A stretch of 64,000 nt of DNA, from assembly GCA_002127295.1 (NCBI GenBank), contig NFUV01000001.1:1922001-1986000 (forward strand). The letters run 5' to 3'. Each line of letters begins with the position of its first letter. Positions within the stretch are counted from its first letter, which is position 1. This DNA is from Chitinophagaceae bacterium IBVUCB2 (GTDB lineage Bacteria > Bacteroidota > Bacteroidia > Chitinophagales > Chitinophagaceae). Shown here in pieces: positions 9,863-60,658 of the stretch. Position numbers and translations under genes: made by a program. The notes beneath the pieces were generated by a model. The model had not been told where the DNA came from. It worked only from the letters and a program-made list of their open reading frames with translations, and did no database searches.

Positions 9863-10974
9863 TACATCCACCGGTCGGCTCTTGCAGTATAGAGATCAAG
9901 GTCGCCATTGGCCCTGCGTTGTAATACCAGCACCTGTGTTTCATCAAGCTTATCCATTTGCAACACATTCACAGCAGGTAGGTTTGTAAAACTTACACCA
10001 GCCGTTCCATAACTTTCTTTGATGGGTTCTGTAAGAGTGCCTTCATACGATTCGATATTCTTATAATTGATTCGCATCACCGGACGGTTGGTATTGGCCA
10101 TGAACAAATAGGAGATGCCATCTTTCTTTAAGGTGATCATATCAACCGGTGAATTACCGGCGCCAAATTCAGCAACTGTTCTTCCTTTTACATGCTTGCC
10201 GGGTTTCAGTTCATCCAATGGAAATAAAACCAGCGGTGTACAAGTATAACTGGCCACTAAATATTTTTTGCCGTTCAATTCCGCTGTTGTAAAAGTGCGG
10301 ATCGGTGCATTCGTTTCAAATTTACCATGTGCAGCATGATAAATCTCTAATGATGCCTGCTCTTGTTTATCTGAAAAAGGAAAACTGATCTTTCTGAAAG
10401 TAGAACCAAACTCCTGGTTAGAAAGTCCGCTTAACATTACACTACCATCTGCATAATTAAGATCAGAAATAGATTGATCCCTCAATGGACGACCATTCCT
10501 GTCTTTCATATCATCTCCCGGCACATTAGCAATAGAGATACTGCTGTGTGAAATATCTTTTAAGTTAACCGGAACTATTTTATCGCCTTCCAGTGTAAGC
10601 AGCAACGGCGTACCATCATTGCTTTGCACAGCGATATATACTTTTTTAGAAATGGGGTTCACCGCTATGTCCTGTATCCGTACATTTTTTGCTTCAGTAC
10701 CTAATGCTGCCGCAATCTTTTGATCTATGTTTTTTACTTCTGTTGCCGTTGCTTTTTCTACCATCGTTTTGTCTTTGGTATCAATGGCAAACACCATAGC
10801 GGATTTAGAATCGCCGATAAAAAGAATTCCATCCGGCCCAAAAGAGATAGCACTGATGGATTTTATTTCCGCTGCTCCCTGTTTCAATCCATAAGGATTT
10901 GGTATGGGTCTGTTAGCAGAAAGCAGGATAATGAAAGCTGCACCGATTGCAGTAAAAAAATATATCTTTTTCAT
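9862..10974 (-). CDS. Secreted protein of unknown function, propeller-like
   Basis: A signal peptide covers about residues 1-20. The mature protein has repeated short beta-strand units with D/N-G turns (FGPDGILFIGDSKSAMVFAID; VNPISKKVYIAVQS; KKDGISYLFMANTNRP), suggesting a beta-propeller of the NHL/YVTN kind. No conserved catalytic residues are recognised. It is the first gene of a two-gene unit with the Ig-like lipoprotein, sharing one base with its start, so the two products probably work together at the cell envelope. Confidence 0.65.
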   Translation of the reverse strand: MKKIYFFTAIGAAFIILLSANRPIPNPYGLKQGAAEIKSISAISFGPDGILFIGDSKSAMVFAIDTKDKTMVEKATATEVKNIDQKIAAALGTEAKNVRIQDIAVNPISKKVYIAVQSNDGTPLLLTLEGDKIVPVNLKDISHSSISIANVPGDDMKDRNGRPLRDQSISDLNYADGSVMLSGLSNQEFGSTFRKISFPFSDKQEQASLEIYHAAHGKFETNAPIRTFTTAELNGKKYLVASYTCTPLVLFPLDELKPGKHVKGRTVAEFGAGNSPVDMITLKKDGISYLFMANTNRPVMRINYKNIESYEGTLTEPIKESYGTAGVSFTNLPAVNVLQMDKLDETQVLVLQRRANGDLDLYTARADRWM

Positions 10975-16008: not shown

Positions 16009-16281
16009 TTGACAAATTTGTAAGAACAGTTGACAATTGCATCAGGATAGTTGACAATTGTTTTGGAACAGATTGCACTTGCATTAGAGCAGCTAACAAT
16101 TGCATTAGCTCAGCTAGCATTTGCATTATTGCAGATAACAATTAGTTTTGTGCAGGTGACAATTGTATTAGAGCCAGTGACAATTGCATTAGCGCAGCTA
16201 GCAGTTGTTTTAGAGCAGATGGCAGTTGCAGTGCAGCAGATTGCAATTGCAGCAAGGCAGATGGGCGTTGTTTTGCTGCCA
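16009..16281. repeat. Array of 13 degenerate 21-bp tandem repeats
   Basis: Thirteen consecutive 21-bp units fit a consensus near TTGACAATTGCATTAGAGCAG, with a partial fourteenth to about 16296. The phase is kept without a single indel. Several units hold the palindrome CAATTG and some the string TTGACA. The unit length is a multiple of three, so a frame from 16051 to 16296 is open and would encode heptads like TIALAQL, but it has no ATG start (it begins at TTG after TAG). The repeat DNA therefore explains the frame. The array ends about 40 bp before an HTH gene. Confidence 0.85.
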
Positions 16282-16323
16282 ATGGCTGTTTTTTAAATTA
16301 CAACATCTAAAAACCAATACGTT

Positions 16324-16677
16324 ATGCTTAGTTTGAATGTAGCCCGCCTTTTACAGAGCCGTGGCATTGACAATGTGAGCCGGTACCTGGTGGAAAAGGG
16401 TATGAAGTACCATACGGTGAACCGGTTGCTGAGCGGAAAGACGGATAGCCTCACTTATGCGACCATTGAACAGCTTTGCATTTTGTGTACCTGTGCGCCG
16501 AATGAACTGTTTGTATGGCGGGATGATGGCAGCCATGCTTTGGCCAAGGACCACCCGCTGCATACACTAAAAGCAAAGGATGAAGTGGTGAACCCGGTGG
16601 AGCGGATCAAAAAATTATCAGTAAGTAAACTGGAGAAGCTGAAAGAGTTTATGGATGGGTTGGAGAAGGAGGGGTGA
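16324..16677 (+). CDS. Helix-turn-helix (XRE/HTH_26-like) DNA-binding protein
   Basis: Residues 1-65 match a Cro/CI-type helix-turn-helix of the HTH_26 kind. The pattern is NVARLLQSRGI, a recognition region KYHTVNRLLSGKT, then LTYATIEQLCILCTCAPNELF, which resembles the LCxxLxCxPxDL ending of this family. The C-terminal 40 residues are charged and helical (PVERIKKLSVSKLEKLKEFM). It is 117 aa and probably a transcription regulator. Its position directly after the 21-bp array makes the array a natural candidate operator. The base composition still resembles the host, unlike the following genes. Confidence 0.75.
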   Translation: MLSLNVARLLQSRGIDNVSRYLVEKGMKYHTVNRLLSGKTDSLTYATIEQLCILCTCAPNELFVWRDDGSHALAKDHPLHTLKAKDEVVNPVERIKKLSVSKLEKLKEFMDGLEKEG

Positions 16678-16726
16678 GTTGGATGTAAATCCTTCTATGT
16701 ATTATAGCATTCGCTGATTCTAATCA

Positions 16727-16993
16727 TTATGAAAAGTCATATTTATAGAATGCACCTCTCTCAATAGCTATTACGATATGTGTATCATTAATTAATTGCT
16801 CTTCTGTCAAATCTTCCTCATAAGAATCATCAATTTCATTATGCACATCAAATGTATTTGTGTCGGGATAATAAATGATTCGCTTACTACTCCTAAGATT
16901 AAAGTTTAAAAGAATAAAAAATTCCGCCCATCCTCTTCTATCGTCATAGATAGCCTCCTTTTTCAATTCCTCTATGGAGGTAATTTTTTTCAT
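16727..16993 (-). CDS. Hypothetical small acidic protein
   Basis: 88 residues, not recognised. It begins MKKITSIEELKKEAIYDD, then a hydrophobic strand-like segment (WAEFFILLNFNLRSSKRIIYY), then a very acidic stretch (EIDDSYEEDLTEEQL) and a closing IVIAIERGAFYKYDF. There is no signal or membrane helix. It is AT-rich like the nuclease-helicase operon and points away from it. Size and acidity would fit an anti-toxin, immunity or anti-repressor protein, but nothing specific supports that. Confidence 0.6.
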   Translation of the reverse strand: MKKITSIEELKKEAIYDDRRGWAEFFILLNFNLRSSKRIIYYPDTNTFDVHNEIDDSYEEDLTEEQLINDTHIVIAIERGAFYKYDFS

Positions 16994-17007
16994 CGCTTAG
17001 TTTTTTA

Positions 17008-17015
17008 CAAAAATA
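17008..17015 (-). promoter_or_regulatory. Candidate -7 box for the 88-aa gene
   Basis: The minus strand reads TATTTTTG (TAnnTTTG), 14 nt upstream of the ATG at 16993. Confidence 0.35.
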
Positions 17016-17071
17016 AATAATGACCCTTAAAGTCCGTTGACTTAAAAGCCACAATAGCTGATCTTCCTGGT

Positions 17072-17293
17072 ATGGACATAAAACTAAGAGTGGGGCAACG
17101 AATTAAGCAGCTTCGAAAAAATCTTGAGTTGTCGCAAGAGGCTCTTGCTTTGAAAGCAGAGGTTGATAGAACCTATGTGACAGATGTTGAAAATGGAAGG
17201 AGGAATGTGTCTATGGAAATATTGGAAAGGTTAGTTAAAGGTTTAGGAGTTTCCTTTTCTGAATTTTTTAATGCTAAAGAGTTCAAAAAATAA
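17072..17293 (+). CDS. XRE-family regulator (small Cro/CI repressor)
   Basis: 73 residues, almost entirely one helix-turn-helix domain: VGQRIKQLRKNLELSQEALALKAEVDRTYVTDVENGRRNVSMEIL is typical, with the recognition helix around DRTYVTDVENG. It closely resembles restriction-modification controller (C) proteins and short phage repressors. It ends 8 nt before the nuclease-helicase gene and is surely co-transcribed. The likely role is timing or repression of that gene. Confidence 0.88.
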   Translation: MDIKLRVGQRIKQLRKNLELSQEALALKAEVDRTYVTDVENGRRNVSMEILERLVKGLGVSFSEFFNAKEFKK

Positions 17294-17301
17294 TATCCTA
17301 C

Positions 17302-19269
17302 ATGACTAGAAGTTACTATTCAAATTCCATCTCAGATTTTATTACCGACAACGAAACAAAAATTCTTGGAGAATTAAGTTTACGTCATGGCTTTGCTCTG
17401 GAGAGTCTACAAAAAAATGCTTGGGTAAGACAAATTCAAATTTTAAAAAAATCTTTAGAACCGTTTAGAGATGGCCAAATCTATTTTGAGTTTGCTATCC
17501 CAAGAATGGGGAAAAGAGTCGATAATATATTAATAATTAACGACCTCATTTTTGTATTAGAATTTAAAATTGGTGAATCGCAATATCCAAAATATGCTAC
17601 AGAGCAGGTTGTTGATTACTGCTTAGATTTGAAAAACTTTCATCAAGGTAGCCACTATGAAAAGCTAATACCGATTTTGATCTCAACGAATGCATTAGCT
17701 ATTGAAAATATTATTGAAATAGATGATAATTTATTTGAACCAATTTATTCAAATCAAGAAAATCTTAGTAGTACAATTTCTTTATTAGTCAACCAGTTTT
17801 CCTCAAAAAAAATAAACACTATTGATTGGGAGACCTCTATATACAAACCGACACCAACAATAATAGAAGCCGCTCAAGCTTTGTATAAAGGTCATGACGT
17901 AAAAGAAATCTCTAGACATGACGCCGGTGCTATTAATCTTTCCCGAACAACAAGCTGTATTAACAAGATTATCGATAGTTCAAAAGAAAATAAAAGAAAA
18001 TCTATTTGTTTTTTAACTGGTGTTCCGGGAGCTGGGAAAACTCTTGCAGGCTTAAATATTGCAAACGAACGGCTCAAAGCTGATAAAGATGAGCATGCTG
18101 TATTTTTATCTGGAAACGGACCATTAGTAGATGTTCTTAGAGAAGCGTTGACAAGAGATGAAGTACTATCAGCAAAAGAAAGGGGACAAATTATAACAAA
18201 GAAAAATGTTGCAACGAAAACACATGCTTTTATACAAAATATTCATCATTTTAGAGATGACAACTTAATCATTGATTCCGCTCCAACTGAAAAAGTTATA
18301 GTGTACGATGAAGCACAAAGAGCTTGGGCAAAAGAACAAGTAAGCTCTTTTATGAAACGAAAAAAGGGAATCGAAGATTTTAATATGTCTGAACCAGAAT
18401 ATTTAATAGGTCTTATGGATAGGCATGACGATTGGTGCACAATAGTATGCTTAATTGGTGGTGGTCAAGAAATAAATACTGGGGAAGCAGGAGTTTCTGA
18501 ATGGCTTAAAGCTTTAAAAAATACAAATAGCAATTGGGATGCTTATTATTCAAACCTTTTTTTAACCGACGAAAGTTATTTATCTGATCAAACTTTAAGG
18601 AAATGGATAAGTGATTCTGGAAAAATGGAACTGCATTTACATCTTTCGGTATGTGTACGTTCATTTAGATCGGAGAAAATCTCCGAACTAATGCATAATA
18701 TTCTTGAAAGCAAAACCCAAGTAGTAAAAGATCTATTTTTAGAAGTAAGAAATGAATTTCCTATTTATTTGACAAGAAGTCTTGCAACTGCAAAAAATTG
18801 GCTTAGAGAAAAAGCTAAAGGAAGTGAAAGATTTGGAATAATTGCGAGTTCAGGAGGCAAAAGACTTCGTCCTTGTGGGATAGATGTAAATAACCAGCTT
18901 GATGCACCAAACTGGTTTTTAAATAATTCTGATGATGTTCGATCATCTAATCATTTAGAAGATGTTGCAACCGAGTTTGATATCCAAGGCTTAGAAATTG
19001 ATTGGGTATGCTTAGCATGGGATATTAATTTTTATAATAAAGAGGGAAAGTGGTTTTATCAAAGTTTCAAAGGAACAAAATGGCAACGAGTTAAGCAATT
19101 AGATGATCTAGCTTTTTTAAAAAACACATATCGGGTTTTAATGACAAGAGCTAGACAGGGTCTTATTATTTATCTCCCACATGGCGATGACCTTGATATA
19201 ACTAGACCAAAAGAGCTTTATGATGCTACTTTTAAATATTTCATTTCTTGTGGCTTTACTGAAATTTAA
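17302..19269 (+). CDS. Putative PD-(D/E)XK nuclease fused to DUF2075-like SF1 helicase
   Basis: A 655-aa cytosolic protein. The N-terminal 110 residues fit a RecB-like PD-(D/E)XK nuclease: Asp74 in KRVDNILI, Glu87-x-Lys89 in VLEFKIG, and a Q-x3-Y motif (Gln102, Tyr106). The rest resembles the DUF2075/SF1 ATPase family: Walker A GVPGAGKT (240-247), Walker B VIVYDEAQR (332-340), the GGGQEINTGE segment (386-395, motif III-like), VCVRSFRS (450-457, motif IV-like), EFDIQGLEIDW (558-568, motif V-like), and YRVLMTRARQG (610-620, motif VI). DUF2075 proteins appear in phage-defence settings. The DNA is clearly AT-richer than its neighbours, so transfer is likely. Confidence 0.8.
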   Translation: MTRSYYSNSISDFITDNETKILGELSLRHGFALESLQKNAWVRQIQILKKSLEPFRDGQIYFEFAIPRMGKRVDNILIINDLIFVLEFKIGESQYPKYATEQVVDYCLDLKNFHQGSHYEKLIPILISTNALAIENIIEIDDNLFEPIYSNQENLSSTISLLVNQFSSKKINTIDWETSIYKPTPTIIEAAQALYKGHDVKEISRHDAGAINLSRTTSCINKIIDSSKENKRKSICFLTGVPGAGKTLAGLNIANERLKADKDEHAVFLSGNGPLVDVLREALTRDEVLSAKERGQIITKKNVATKTHAFIQNIHHFRDDNLIIDSAPTEKVIVYDEAQRAWAKEQVSSFMKRKKGIEDFNMSEPEYLIGLMDRHDDWCTIVCLIGGGQEINTGEAGVSEWLKALKNTNSNWDAYYSNLFLTDESYLSDQTLRKWISDSGKMELHLHLSVCVRSFRSEKISELMHNILESKTQVVKDLFLEVRNEFPIYLTRSLATAKNWLREKAKGSERFGIIASSGGKRLRPCGIDVNNQLDAPNWFLNNSDDVRSSNHLEDVATEFDIQGLEIDWVCLAWDINFYNKEGKWFYQSFKGTKWQRVKQLDDLAFLKNTYRVLMTRARQGLIIYLPHGDDLDITRPKELYDATFKYFISCGFTEI

Positions 19270-19278
19270 TTCTCATAA

Positions 19279-20052
19279 TTGCTATTTTATAGATGTCTTC
19301 AAATTGCTCCCTTGAAATACTCCTTATCTATTATATTATCATTCTTTCTCTTTCATTCTTCCGCTCAACCCTTCATCCATTCCCACAACGATTACCAGCA
19401 GGCCAAACCATTAACCAATGCCATCAGGCATAAAGTGTTTGCCCTGGAGGCAGATGTGTTCTTAACCAACCGTGGGCTGGTGGTGGCGCATGATAAAAAA
19501 GATACGGCCACTGCTGCTACCCTGGAAGCCTTGTACCTGCAACCGATCATCCGCCTGTTTAAAAAACATAAAGGCCGCATCAGCAAGAACAAAACCTATA
19601 GCCCGGTGCTGATGATTGATATAAAAGAAAATGCTGCTGCAGCTATCACTGCTTTATTGGAATTAATTATGCTGCACCCGGCGGTGTTCAACCGTTCGGT
19701 GAATCCGAAGGCGGTGCAACTTGTTATCAGTGGTGACCGGGGAAAAATTGCTGACTGGCTTACTTACCCGTACCCGATTTTTTTTGATGGCCGCCCTACA
19801 GAAATATATACTGATGCTACGCTGCAGCGGGTGGCATTTATCAGTGCATCGTACAGCAACTATGTAACTGCGAAAGACAGTGCCACCCGTATACAGGAAC
19901 TGGCTAATAAAGTACATGCACAAAATAAACTGTTGCGGCTATGGGCCATACCGGATACCGCTGCGCATTGGAAACAGTTGCATGAACTGGGTGTTGATAT
20001 TATTAATACGGATAAGGTGGAGGAGTGCCGGAAGTTTTTTATGAAACAGTAA
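19279..20052 (+). CDS. PLC-like phosphodiesterase (GDPD/PI-PLC superfamily), secreted
   Basis: Contains the family start HSHNDYQQ after a signal peptide (about residues 12-30, KYSLSIILSFFLFHSSAQ), then ALEADVFLTNRGLVVAHD, where His and the Glu/Asp pair form the metal-acid/base site of the TIM-barrel phosphodiesterases. The C-terminal DIINTDKVEE matches the closing strand. Related proteins (AIM6-like) are annotated as PI-PLC/glycerophosphodiester phosphodiesterases; the substrate is unknown. No ATG precedes the signal peptide. TTG 19279 or TTG 19312 must serve, and the helicase gene ends just 9 nt before, so the original start may have been lost where foreign DNA joined. Confidence 0.75.
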   Translation: MLFYRCLQIAPLKYSLSIILSFFLFHSSAQPFIHSHNDYQQAKPLTNAIRHKVFALEADVFLTNRGLVVAHDKKDTATAATLEALYLQPIIRLFKKHKGRISKNKTYSPVLMIDIKENAAAAITALLELIMLHPAVFNRSVNPKAVQLVISGDRGKIADWLTYPYPIFFDGRPTEIYTDATLQRVAFISASYSNYVTAKDSATRIQELANKVHAQNKLLRLWAIPDTAAHWKQLHELGVDIINTDKVEECRKFFMKQ

Positions 20053-20093
20053 ACAGCACCTGAGCATTCCGCTGTTTGTTTGAAGGCATTTAA

Positions 20094-20627
20094 TTATTTA
20101 AAGAACCTTACTTCATTTTTATCATCCTTTAATGCTACAACCATTACAACACCTGTTGTAATTGCCAGGCCTATATATGTTGCGTCTTTTGCCTGGATAA
20201 CACTGCTGCCTGATTTATCGAACTGGTATTTACTGCTGAGGTATTTCATTATCTCTGCGCCGTTCAGTTTTGCTTTTGTATGGGGAATAAAACTGATGGT
20301 ATATACAAGACCAGTTTTAGCGGCCACCACCAACATTAATGAGCCACATCCTGTTCCAATTACAATGGTCTTGCTGGCATCCATTGAATTTCTTGACGAA
20401 GCTTTGATAATATCTGTTTTCCATTCATCTCCCCCCACTAAAGATGCAGGGCGGCCTGCAGCAATGATTGCAGAATCTGTTTTTCCAAGAAACTCCAGCG
20501 GGTTGGCAATGAGGCTGTCTATTTCCTGCAAGGTTTTTTCCTGCAAGGTTTTTTCCTGCAAGGTTTTTTTCTGCGCAAGGGCTGTCATGCTAAATAAAAC
20601 AGCAACAAGAAAAAGAAACTTTTTCAT
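20094..20627 (-). CDS. Hypothetical secreted protein with a triple KTLQE repeat
   Basis: Residues 1-18 are a signal peptide (MKKFLFLVAVLFSMTALAQ). Right after the cleavage site come three identical KTLQE pentapeptides, encoded by perfect 15-bp DNA repeats. The remaining 140 residues have alternating strands and a Gly-rich turn (IGTGCGSLMLVVAAKTGLVY) but match no family I know. A small lipid-binding or envelope protein is possible. Confidence 0.65.
   Translation of the reverse strand: MKKFLFLVAVLFSMTALAQKKTLQEKTLQEKTLQEIDSLIANPLEFLGKTDSAIIAAGRPASLVGGDEWKTDIIKASSRNSMDASKTIVIGTGCGSLMLVVAAKTGLVYTISFIPHTKAKLNGAEIMKYLSSKYQFDKSGSSVIQAKDATYIGLAITTGVVMVVALKDDKNEVRFFK
20525..20569. repeat. Three perfect 15-bp tandem repeats within a gene
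   Basis: The unit CCTGCAAGGTTTTTT occurs three times without change, inside the codons for KTLQE repeats. Unit length is a multiple of three, so copy number can change without a frameshift. Confidence 0.9.
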
Positions 20628-20934
20628 ACCCGCCTGTTTTAGTAAATGAGATACTGAATTTACAACTCTTTTGTAACAGTGCTTTTAGGGGAAATATGTT
20701 GGGGTTTGTATTTTCTTATGGTGGATGTCGCACCTAACCTGAAGGTGTTTATGATTAGCGTTTGAGATGGCTCCTTCGTCGGTATGACAAGACTCCAAAT
20801 GTTGTGAGCAACAAAAAATTTCTCCCGGCGAATGAACTACCACTACCGGTGAATGATACATTAACATTCCATACATTAAACTGGTGCCTGCTTTGCATAT
20901 CTACCATTATTATTCACTTTAAAAATTTGGAACT
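20628..20934. other. Intergenic space with a possible dispersed element
   Basis: About 300 bp without a gene. It contains a small hairpin (CACCT...AGGTG, 20731-20747) and a stretch at 20764-20790 that reads on the minus strand TTGTCATACCGACGAAGGAG followed by CCATCTC, a sequence type often found scattered between bacterial genes. Confidence 0.4.
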
Positions 20935-21363
20935 ATGAAAAGAACTTTTACTTTGGTTTTTGCTTTAGGCCTTTTAACAGCCGCACAGGCACAGAACCGC
21001 AACGGTGACAACCGTGACAACCGCCAGCCCGACCGGCCGGTAGTTATTCAACATGATCAACGGGATTGGGATAATGATTATAGCAACGATCAGTATGACC
21101 GTGATGTTCGCTATATGAAAAGCAATCCTGGTAAGGACAGAAAAATGGCCAAACAAATTGATGCCATTAACCGGGAGTTTGATTTTAAGATGCAGCAATT
21201 GCAAAGAAACCGCTACATGAGTCGCTTTGACAAGCAACGCCAAATGCGTTTTCTGCAAGAGCAACGCCAACGGGAAATAAGAATGGTGTATGCCCGTAAT
21301 TATAAGAACAAGCATAAAAATAAATACGATGACCGTGATGATCGCTACGGTAACCGTTTTTAA
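20935..21363 (+). CDS. Small secreted, highly charged protein of unknown function
   Basis: A signal peptide (residues 1-19, ends AAQAQ) precedes a low-complexity Asn/Asp/Arg region (NRNGDNRDNRQPDRP) and then a helical Gln/Arg/Met-rich stretch (INREFDFKMQQLQRNRYMSR to REIRMVYARN), ending in a Lys/Asp/Arg-rich tail. Similar short, basic, Met/Gln-rich secreted proteins are common in Chitinophagaceae and resemble Spy/CpxP-like helical proteins, but no family motif is clear. A strong terminator follows. Confidence 0.7.
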   Translation: MKRTFTLVFALGLLTAAQAQNRNGDNRDNRQPDRPVVIQHDQRDWDNDYSNDQYDRDVRYMKSNPGKDRKMAKQIDAINREFDFKMQQLQRNRYMSRFDKQRQMRFLQEQRQREIRMVYARNYKNKHKNKYDDRDDRYGNRF

Positions 21364-59095: not shown

Positions 59096-59524
59096 CTAAC
59101 GACCGGGAAAAAGAAGCTCCCGGTTGCGGATTTGAATGGCACGGTCTAAACCTGTGGTTGACTTGTCTTGAAAAGACCGGCTTAATGCCAGCGTTACAAA
59201 CTGCCCCGCCAAAAAACCATAGGTAAGATTGCGGTTATTATCACTGGCTCCTTTTGCTACACCAATAAAAGCAAGTAATGAAACATAACGTAAAACACTA
59301 CTGATGGTTTTATCCTTCTTTGCTTTAGCATATAAATCAAAGGAAATAGAAGGGTTTATAAACTCTTCTCGTAATGCACTAAAAGAAACTTTATTACCGC
59401 CTTTCATAAAATGGCTTCCATAGCGGTAGAGGAGTTGCTGGTCGTATTTTTTGAGGAGTGAGTCTGATTGCGAAAAGCTGTGGAAACTGATCAGCAGGGT
59501 AGTTAAAAGAATTATTATTTTCAT
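59096..59524 (-). CDS. Hypothetical secreted protein, coupled to the gene upstream
   Basis: 142 aa with a signal peptide (1-18). A hydrophobic stretch near residues 78-110 ([32 protein letters not shown]) could be membrane-associated or fold-stabilising. Not recognised. The start overlaps the upstream stop by 4 nt (ATGA), so both are translated together. Confidence 0.6.
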
Positions 59525-60090
59525 TTGATGACGGATTGAAGGGTTAACGATTCCATGATTCGGCTTACGAATTGATTTAGAGATTCCGATTCTCCAATAA
59601 AAAAATTCCAGTTCTTATATTTTTTCCCATTAGGGGAATTAACCCTTTTGACGGCTATACAATCATTTGTGGGAGAGTTACATACAGCAATTTCTATAAT
59701 CTGTAAATAAGGATGGGCTAATTCCATTTCTTTAATAAAATAGTCTTTATTCTTTTTTACATTTTCTATATTATCCAGCATTCGTTGTTTATTGTTTACA
59801 CCAAATAAATTTTCGAAGAATTTTTTAGAAAGATCTGAAGCTTCTTCATAATTAAGAACTTCAAATTTTTTTGCTTTTAAGCTATCCCTAAGCAGTATTT
59901 GCAAATCCATTCTAAAAAGCGAATCTTTTGCTGTAATTCTTACCGGCATTGACCGAACCAATAAAAGTGAATCAATATTTTTTTGCTCCTGCTTTCTTTC
60001 TGTCTTAGTTAGCTTTACAGATTGAGCTGTTATTACTATTTGGGATAAACAAAAAACGGAGATCAATATTATTACAGTCCAACTTTTCAT
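59521..60090 (-). CDS. Hypothetical secreted protein
   Basis: 189 aa from ATG 60090 (the frame extends to TTG 60102). Signal peptide about residues 1-22 (ending ITAQS), then a Lys/Glu-rich helical region (TKTERKQEQKNIDSLLLVRS), later LAHPYLQIIEIAVCNSPTND and NGKKYKNWNFFIGESES. No family recognised. Upstream partner of the gene at 59096; the pair looks like an envelope module of unknown role. Confidence 0.6.
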   Translation of the reverse strand: MKSWTVIILISVFCLSQIVITAQSVKLTKTERKQEQKNIDSLLLVRSMPVRITAKDSLFRMDLQILLRDSLKAKKFEVLNYEEASDLSKKFFENLFGVNNKQRMLDNIENVKKNKDYFIKEMELAHPYLQIIEIAVCNSPTNDCIAVKRVNSPNGKKYKNWNFFIGESESLNQFVSRIMESLTLQSVIK

Positions 60091-60214
60091 ACTATACGCC
60101 AATTTTAAGAAATATTCTGCCAGTCATCTTTCAAAATAAACAATTATTAGGCAATTATCTATTCTCAAATATTATCGGGAAAATAAAAACCGTTCAGTTA
60201 TGTATATTTATAAA

Positions 60215-60658
60215 ATGAAAAAAGCACTGCTTGCTGTTTTATTACTTTGCAATTCAATTGTGCTTTTTGCTCAATCCTCACTTCCTAAAGACAGCATACT
60301 TATTAACCCCGATTCTATATATGTTGATGTAGATATAAAAGCGGAGTATCCCGGTGGCCATAAAGGATGGAGTGATTTTATAGAAAAGAAAATTAATGGA
60401 CAAGTTGCCACCGATAATGGTGCGCCGGCCGGCACCTATACAGTAGTTATTGCTTGTATTATTGGTACCGATGGAAAATTGATAGCCGCCGCTCCGCTAA
60501 CAAGCCATGGCTATGGAATGGAAAGAGAAATGCTGCGGGTGCTTAATAAAATTCCAAAAGCATTTATCCCTGCTTATAAAAACGGAATACCTGTAAAATC
60601 AAAACTAAAATTTCCGCTAACATTTAGTGTTGGCAATACGAAGGCAACACGATTTTAA
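60215..60658 (+). CDS. Secreted TonB C-terminal-like protein
   Basis: 147 aa from ATG 60215. Signal peptide (MKKALLAVLLLCNSIVLFAQ), then a TonB-C-like fold: KAEYPGGHKGWSDFIEKKI opens many Bacteroidota 'energy transducer TonB' proteins, and GTYTVVIACIIGTDGKLIAA and PAFIPAYKNG-like elements (here PKAFIPAYKNGIPVKSKLKFPLTFSV) match the rest. It has no membrane anchor or Pro-rich spacer, so it is not an energy transducer itself. It may act as a partner or a scaffold. Convergent with the SNF2 gene, 15 nt between stops. Confidence 0.78.
   Translation: MKKALLAVLLLCNSIVLFAQSSLPKDSILINPDSIYVDVDIKAEYPGGHKGWSDFIEKKINGQVATDNGAPAGTYTVVIACIIGTDGKLIAAAPLTSHGYGMEREMLRVLNKIPKAFIPAYKNGIPVKSKLKFPLTFSVGNTKATRF

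Follow-up and report, generated by a model that had tools for sequence, protein, structure and literature searches.

A PDC-S41 nuclease-helicase behind a restriction-type controller gene in a Chitinophagaceae bacterium: a candidate anti-phage module

The locus and its nuclease-helicase

In Chitinophagaceae bacterium IBVUCB2, whose 4.0 Mb genome is assembled in three contigs, a stretch of 64,000 nucleotides (contig NFUV01000001.1, positions 1,922,001 to 1,986,000; the window, whose first letter is position 1 below) contains a gene for a 73-aa XRE regulator (17072..17293, plus strand) followed, after a gap of 8 nt by open reading frame (ORF) coordinates, by a gene for a 655-aa nuclease-helicase (17302..19269, plus strand). 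Just upstream of the regulator gene lies a C-box-like candidate operator (17021..17054, plus strand), and on the other side of it a divergent gene for an 88-aa protein (16727..16993, minus strand). Our reading is that the locus is probably a restriction-like anti-phage module without a methyltransferase, in which a nuclease-helicase is switched by a controller (C) protein. An original prediction, made from the letters alone, had singled out the two-gene pair and its motifs, all of which lie where it placed them; the operator, between 16993 and 17072, and the divergent gene are additions to it. The AT-richness that it had remarked on was confirmed, the pair having a GC content of 0.331 against 0.390 for the window, with 7 of 1,237 overlapping intervals of equal length as low or lower. 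A second low-GC stretch at 59501-60500 (0.322) equals the lowest value at the pair.

The 655-aa protein belongs to a family that is already catalogued. The PADLOC profile PDC-S41, a phage-defence candidate, matches it over its whole length (residues 1-655 to profile positions 1-653 of 657; E 6.1e-281, 931.5 bits), and the gene was therefore rejected as a first find; of the suggestion that this might be an uncharacterised nuclease-helicase unit, the domains stood and the novelty did not. Pfam PF09848 (SLFN-g3_helicase; ‘Schlafen group 3, DNA/RNA helicase domain’) matches residues 233-626 (17998..19179, plus strand) with E 1.1e-74. We take this family to be the former DUF2075, the label used in the original prediction, which was thus correct as to family and outdated as to name. 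The defining elements of an SF1 helicase, i.e., Walker A, a DExQ Walker B and motifs III, V and VI, are all present, and the helicase motifs comprise GVPGAGKT (Walker A, 240-247), VIVYDEAQR (Walker B, 332-340), GGGQE at 386, QGLE at 562 and YRVLMTRARQG at 610. Residues D74, E87, K89, Q102, Y106 and K246 were verified at these positions. The five nuclease residues among them do not vary across the 57 aligned rows (the window and 56 of 80 homolog loci), nor do K246, D336, E337, Q389, Q562, R616 and R618 of the helicase, which indicates that the motifs are meaningful; the nuclease residues are also kept in all nine rows of a second set, including the window, that reaches about 27% identity.

The N-terminus is predicted to form a PD-(D/E)XK nuclease domain (residues 1-200; 17302..17901, plus strand), in agreement with the fold proposed for it. 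The AlphaFold2 model of residues 1-200, built with 38 sequences, has a mean pLDDT of 91.6 and a pTM of 0.87, and its predicted core shows the alpha-beta-beta-beta-alpha-beta order of PD-(D/E)XK enzymes (helix 35-51, strands 59-66, 71-79 and 82-89, helix 97-113, strand 121-128), in which D74 is carried by strand two, E87 and K89 by strand three, and Q102 and Y106 by the helix after it. In a Foldseek search with this domain, Can2 and Cdn1 were among the best solved folds, as were the McrC part of McrBC and a repair endonuclease from an archaeon, and EcoO109I appeared further down; the best E was 1.5e-3 with a probability of 0.96, and the first eight matches had probabilities of 0.93-0.99. We take all five to be PD-(D/E)XK nucleases. 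With the whole-chain model (pLDDT 82.1), the top matches were human SLFN11 (E 4e-8) and SLFN14 (5e-8), followed by Upf1 (2.6e-6) and Dna2 (5eaw, 7.3e-6), while a PDB search by sequence returned no meaningful relative of the protein. Helicase-nucleases of the Dna2, AddB and Cas4 kind carry a four-cysteine iron-sulphur (Fe-S) cluster around the PD-(D/E)XK nuclease; that C107 is the lone cysteine in residues 1-205 speaks against a cluster of this kind here. As a separate observation, five homologs (loci L020, L021, L024, L036 and L038) form one flavobacterial clade with a common C-terminal domain of about 100 aa after the position of residue 655, which is 52-71% identical to that of L020, where a GreA/GreB-like domain precedes it.

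The C gene, its operator-like site and the effectors behind them

Judged by its sequence relatives, the XRE regulator is a C protein of the restriction-modification (R-M) controller type. It matches the PADLOC profile Control_protein (E 2.8e-23), and its solved relatives include the R-M controller 4fn3/3clc, C.BclI and C.AhdI (E 2e-9 to 7e-9), with an unrelated-named chain (DBP48) at rank 2. The candidate operator is a two-box site with GT in its centre and half boxes at 17024-17034 and 17039-17049 separated by CGTT, and all 34 of its nucleotides are identical in locus L104. The locus thus resembles type II R-M systems with C.PvuII, C.Esp1396I, C.AhdI or C.BclI in the family of the regulator, in the C gene directly before a nuclease gene and in the two-box operator-like site; it differs from them in the small gene across the operator and in having no methyltransferase gene, the cognate partner that defines type II systems. 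No methyltransferase profile matched among the 52 ORFs of the window (E ≤ 1e-15), and a genome-wide search confined to C5 methylases, and so not extending to adenine and N4 enzymes, gave no match (10 of 14 controls positive). Given these results, the controller is likely used here for dose control. A sigma-70 promoter scan (15 promoter-like sites against 10.9 expected) and a terminator scan (none) were not used as evidence.

The operator pattern, allowing up to three mismatches, occurs in 17 of 394 genomes of the family, with one copy in each, and its reversed control pattern in none; across 396 genomes of the order it was found in four, every one from the same family. A C gene follows the operator at all 17 sites, and the C proteins at the 15 sites that were re-read (those besides the window and G388) are 68-85% identical to that of the window. 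At 15 of the 17 sites the effector gene begins -4 to +8 nt from the C gene; G304 has 41 nt before the called ORF, and the copy in G446 is interrupted near its start, its open piece beginning 203 nt on. What follows the C gene varies. PDC-S41 stands there at seven sites (G000, G388, G305, G099, G135, G402 and G446; G388 was assigned by having the contig and position of locus L008), an SRA-HNH protein of 220-238 aa at another seven, and one site each has an HNH_2 protein (G425), a small HNH protein that scores exactly the HNH cut-off (G207), and an AAA_5 ATPase, presumably McrB-like, with a second unnamed gene (G373). Two of the seven SRA-HNH proteins were scanned, with HNH above the Pfam cut-off and SAD_SRA at 30.2 and 27.8 bits against a cut-off of 30.7 (E 4.4e-7 and 2.4e-6), and the other five were assigned from their sequence by eye. 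By eye, and with no scan aimed at methyltransferases, none was spotted among the ORFs downstream of the 17 operator sites.

Three further sites were found in the genus, with a small HNH gene and then a C5 methylase (G023), an SRA-HNH gene (G041) and PDC-S41 (G027). On a tree of the C genes with 20 rows, the effector type has to change 11 times, compared with a mean of 9.6 for shuffled labels, and 198 of 200 shuffles were as low; effector types are thus unclustered on this tree, which gives no sign of common descent of effector and controller. Given that the operator precedes a C gene at 17 of 17 sites, that five effector types follow and that these are unclustered, the operator with its C gene resembles a plug-in controller, and PDC-S41 looks like one of its interchangeable effectors. 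The pair G304 and G402 was considered as a clean allelic swap; this was weakened by left flanks that differ, the right flank, presumably the rplM side, and the C cassette being common. XRE homologs were also found in the genus at loci without the operator: a C5 methylase comes after the one in G033 (51% identity), the one in G030 (51%) has no gene on that strand within 1.2 kb downstream, and a further one is in G012 (41%).

Across the operator, 14 of the 20 sites have a small divergent gene that belongs to one or other of two families; the remaining six have neither. The 88-aa family occurs at five sites, i.e., the window, L008 (before PDC-S41), L113 (HNH), and L128 and L129 (both SRA-HNH), the homologs at the four other C cassettes being 56-84% identical and in the same position; another match at L128, of 27 residues, was set aside. 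A second family, here called YRDG, is found at nine sites (L104, L119, L121, L123, L124, L125, L126, L127 and L131) irrespective of the effector. The 88-aa protein of the window is 84% identical to that of L113, beside an HNH nuclease, and 65% to that of L008, the closest of the PDC-S41 relatives that have a C gene, a further hint that what lies behind the controller has been exchanged. The 88-aa protein had no Pfam match above the cut-off and no PDB match at E ≤ 1, and one member of the YRDG family searched against the PDB had no meaningful relative.

At loci with the Algoriphagus-type XRE, C-boxes were rejected as not significant for several (shuffles as good, per 300: 224 in L012, 89 in L022, 79 in L018, 26 in L019 and 22 in L014), and for this reason we claim an operator for the window type only. 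Upstream of another XRE subtype next to PDC-S41 (L042, L049, L051, L065 and L070), an inverted repeat of about 14 bp (ATACTTATTGTATG ... CATACAATAAGTAT) was noticed by eye, and a similar one precedes the XRE gene in L045 and L075.

Distribution and genomic surroundings of PDC-S41

PDC-S41 is patchy rather than housekeeping in its distribution; a stable presence in all related genomes, which would have told against the defence reading of the original prediction, was not seen. In the genus it is present in 3 of 42 genomes, the other two copies at 49% and 42% identity, and in the family in 18 of 294 genomes and 17 of 101 genera at E ≤ 1e-100 (own genome included in both counts). Relatives are encoded by 324 stretches of the GTDB collection, of which the best 80 were analysed as loci; Bacteroidota account for most of these, the rest being Campylobacterota, Acinetobacter, Patescibacteria-type and other records, and several are metagenome bins. 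The named homologs nearest to the window protein come from Chitinophagaceae and from elsewhere in the Bacteroidota. The family is rare in collections of mobile elements (one phage record, four plasmid records and one viral-contig locus). In a quick tree of 77 rows (the window and 76 of the 80 loci, four with internal stops being left out), phyla are interleaved, to which contaminated bins may contribute, and at least eight changes are needed to account for where an adjacent XRE gene is present.

The site in the chromosome exchanges its cargo. Comparison of the flanks by blastn and tblastn delimited a variable segment at 16690..20810 (no strand; edges approximate), and in two of the six relatives fetched, G026 and G001, the 4.1 kb carrying the window genes are replaced by other content. 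On the left, an RDD gene and a gene for a 117-aa XRE protein (16324-16677) are kept in both, only the last 44 residues of the latter in G001, and this XRE protein was accordingly rejected as a member of the unit; on the right, a 142-aa gene (20935-21363) is kept in both and an alcohol dehydrogenase gene in G026. The remaining four relatives have left-flank genes only, except that G023 also has the C gene. The cargo of G026 encodes a helicase fusion of 1,611 aa along with a C5 methylase and a member of PDC-S36 (E 1.9e-92); that of G001, by ORF sequence, comprises the same methylase and a PDC-S36-like gene, together with a PLD-type protein with a weak DrmC match (E 8.7e-9). The 1,611-aa protein (L100, 9011-13846) joins DpdF-like and GajB/UvrD-like helicase parts, and its start is exonuclease-like by eye. 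Between the RDD gene and the 117-aa XRE gene, the window has a repetitive open frame (16051-16296; LEQIALALEQLTIALAQ...), and L100 has a repetitive frame at the corresponding place. A GDPD-like gene 9 nt downstream of the nuclease-helicase gene (19279-20052; GC 0.448) was unsupported as a third partner: relatives were found in only two other genomes of the genus (34% identity; 3 of 42 with its own), on contigs separate from any PDC-S41 match.

The survey of homolog neighbourhoods bore out the defence context that had been proposed, in that restriction and defence-type genes lie both at the site and around homologs. After 11 of the 80 loci had been dropped as near-duplicates, broken or cut off, 242 of 253 neighbouring ORFs were scanned against PADLOC (E ≤ 1e-15; the 11 left out were near-duplicates, all four of L065 among them), and 74 and 38 families were matched in the two parts of the scan; these are counts of families and not of members, for which reason we claim no rate of defence enrichment. 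Among the families are type I restriction, Drt2, SoFic, GajA, GajB, AriA, Old, Mad3 and PDC-S07, the last with five members. HsdR stands directly upstream of the homolog in L021 and, by position and sequence start, also in L024, and a homolog of 27% identity on an Exiguobacterium plasmid (L155, 5989-11412) lies beside genes for a McrC family protein and an AAA family ATPase. In five loci of marine flavobacteria (L042, L045, L049, L051 and L053; about 9963-10352, minus strand), a gene of about 128 aa stands directly behind the homolog; this gene is presumably PDC-S07, which was matched by five members of the set holding these loci. The Acinetobacter homologs L059, L068, L072, L074 and L077 each lie downstream of the same 778-792-aa gene, which we take to be Tex-like, and may thus have a common insertion site; the L068 and L077 copies are interrupted.

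Proposed mechanism and alternative explanations

By analogy with studied C proteins, the regulator would bind the site at 17021-17054 and turn on its own gene and the nuclease-helicase gene at a low level, and would later hold expression down, so that a cell newly receiving the cassette would contain little of the nuclease, and a set dose of it would be maintained afterwards. The relevant parts of PMC12707154 and PMC3874152 describe C proteins as activating their own operon at low level and repressing it at high level, as delaying the nuclease once a system has entered a new cell, sometimes as repressing the methylase gene, and as able to exclude an incoming system with the same operator; a passage of PMC12707154 also cites a C gene at a type I locus. 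The SF1 motor may load on DNA exposed by phage replication or on DNA ends and travel along the DNA, and the PD-(D/E)XK domain would cut it; DNA as the target, the way in which self would be told from non-self, and phage defence are inferred.

Several points weigh against this reading. The Foldseek matches of the nuclease domain are modest, none at E ≤ 0.001 and with TM-scores of 0.32-0.41, and those of the whole chain have TM-scores of about 0.26-0.32 and root-mean-square deviations of 12-20. Each half box fits the C.PvuII-type box at 8 of 11 positions, which 2 of 300 single-base shuffles also reach. The tree of C genes is weak, with 219 columns and 3 of 17 inner branches starred, and the starred branches alone force just two changes for PDC-S41, three for SRA-HNH and two for small HNH. 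In the neighbour scan, broad helicase profiles can match housekeeping genes, and a control scan of the 52 window ORFs matched 25 families, apparently through one SNF2-type helicase and one MotB-like gene. An XRE gene adjoins only 15 of the 76 homolog loci that have more than 400 nt upstream and is missing from 61, which indicates that the effector does not generally need the controller; XRE as an obligate partner was rejected on this count, and the self-contained regulator-effector pair of the original prediction gives way to a regulator that belongs with the operator, as a controller common to other effectors. Finally, kinship with Schlafen and Upf1 proteins keeps RNA possible as a target.

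Among other explanations, it is possible, if rather unlikely, that PDC-S41 acts as a single-gene nuclease-helicase like Nhi or AbiO, which would be triggered by phage single-stranded DNA-binding protein or replication intermediates and would nick and unwind phage DNA, the controller being a dosage device only. Nhi and PDC-S41 share their domain order, with an N-terminal nuclease and a C-terminal helicase in one protein (for the mechanism and order of Nhi, see the portion of PMC12904381 that deals with them), and PADLOC profiles for Nhi/AbiO weakly match several PDC-S41 proteins over the helicase start and, in the case of L142, also across its nuclease domain (Nhi, residues 53-187 at E 1.7e-7). 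The window protein, in contrast, matches Nhi only at E 0.001 over residues 220-361, with 15.8 bits against 931.5 for PDC-S41, which is far below family level, and membership in Nhi was rejected on this partial match. A search for Nhi in 97 relatives gave no match and is uninformative, given that none of 14 controls matched either. That the protein is instead a modification-dependent restriction enzyme, attacking foreign-modified DNA as the SRA-HNH proteins and perhaps the AAA_5 ATPase of the same controller would do, we regard as unlikely. The operator precedes SRA-HNH at 7 of 17 sites and AAA_5 at one, and the lack of a C5 methylase match in the window genome fits such an enzyme; common regulation is, however, no proof of common specificity, PDC-S41 has no SRA, EVE or similar domain at Pfam E ≤ 1, and the two small-HNH genes share the controller as well, one of them, in G023, ahead of a C5 methylase.

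The whole-chain fold matches and the Pfam family raise a further alternative, an abortive-infection RNase in which a Schlafen-type helicase half would direct a nuclease against RNA and the infected cell would die. SLFN11 and SLFN14, one of them bound to double-stranded RNA, head the matches and Upf1 follows, and the window protein shares the PF09848 helicase family with these group 3 Schlafens; it differs from them in having complete ATPase motifs and a PD-(D/E)XK domain, with no Schlafen (AlbA_2-like) RNase core matched at Pfam E ≤ 1. The best folds of that domain are nucleases that act mainly on DNA, and the other effectors of the controller look like restriction-type DNases, so that we hold an RNase to be improbable. 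Even less credible is a DNA repair or recombination enzyme like Dna2 or AddAB that sits in a variable region by chance. Dna2 is among the fold matches and has the same two activities, a PD-(D/E)XK nuclease and an SF1 helicase, as do Upf1-like nuclease-helicases in our comparison; against this stand the missing Fe-S cysteines, the patchy, accessory distribution, the exchange of cargo at the site and a controller common to restriction-type genes.

With the C-switched nuclease-helicase preferred over these alternatives, we put forward, quite tentatively, a wider proposal: that in this bacterial family the divergent small gene, the C-box operator and the C gene form a mobile, effector-neutral controller behind which at least five unrelated kinds of effector have been swapped in, most apparently without a methyltransferase. 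Since a resident C protein can activate the nuclease of an incoming system that has its operator, the shared operator would make one incompatibility group spanning unrelated defence systems, and the small gene may be an immunity or sensor part; by analogy, it stands where a C-controlled methyltransferase gene can stand. The parts of the C-protein literature consulted (sections of PMC12707154, PMC3874152, PMC12255303 and PMC3850674) contain no description of a controller shared among such effectors. A literature search, covering sources other than preprints, found no paper naming PDC-S41, and titles and opening lines of abstracts retrieved with ‘DUF2075’ included none on defence; the term is absent from the main text of PMC9519451 and, like ‘Schlafen’, from that of PMC13092281, while a preprint on bacterial Schlafens is cited in a portion of PMC12839542. 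PDC families were found by guilt-by-embedding and are mostly unvalidated, as stated in part of PMC12988326. The same part gives PDC-S01 and PDC-S27 a make-up of ATPase and PD-(D/E)XK that resembles PDC-S41; they are separate PADLOC families, and neither is among the matches of the window protein.

The 655-aa protein was thus already known as PDC-S41, catalogued as a single-gene candidate, and the new element is a controller cassette of restriction type with interchangeable effectors behind it, the window copy being joined to a C gene, an operator-like site and a divergent small gene. C proteins are otherwise known as timers that give a methyltransferase a head start before the restriction enzyme; the same device here precedes a nuclease-helicase without a nearby methyltransferase gene, an uncharacterised candidate, as well as several other effectors. 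This ties PDC-S41 to restriction-type enzymes by regulation and not by neighbourhood alone, it suggests dose and not a head start as the rationale of the switch, and the short operator motif may be usable for finding new effectors.

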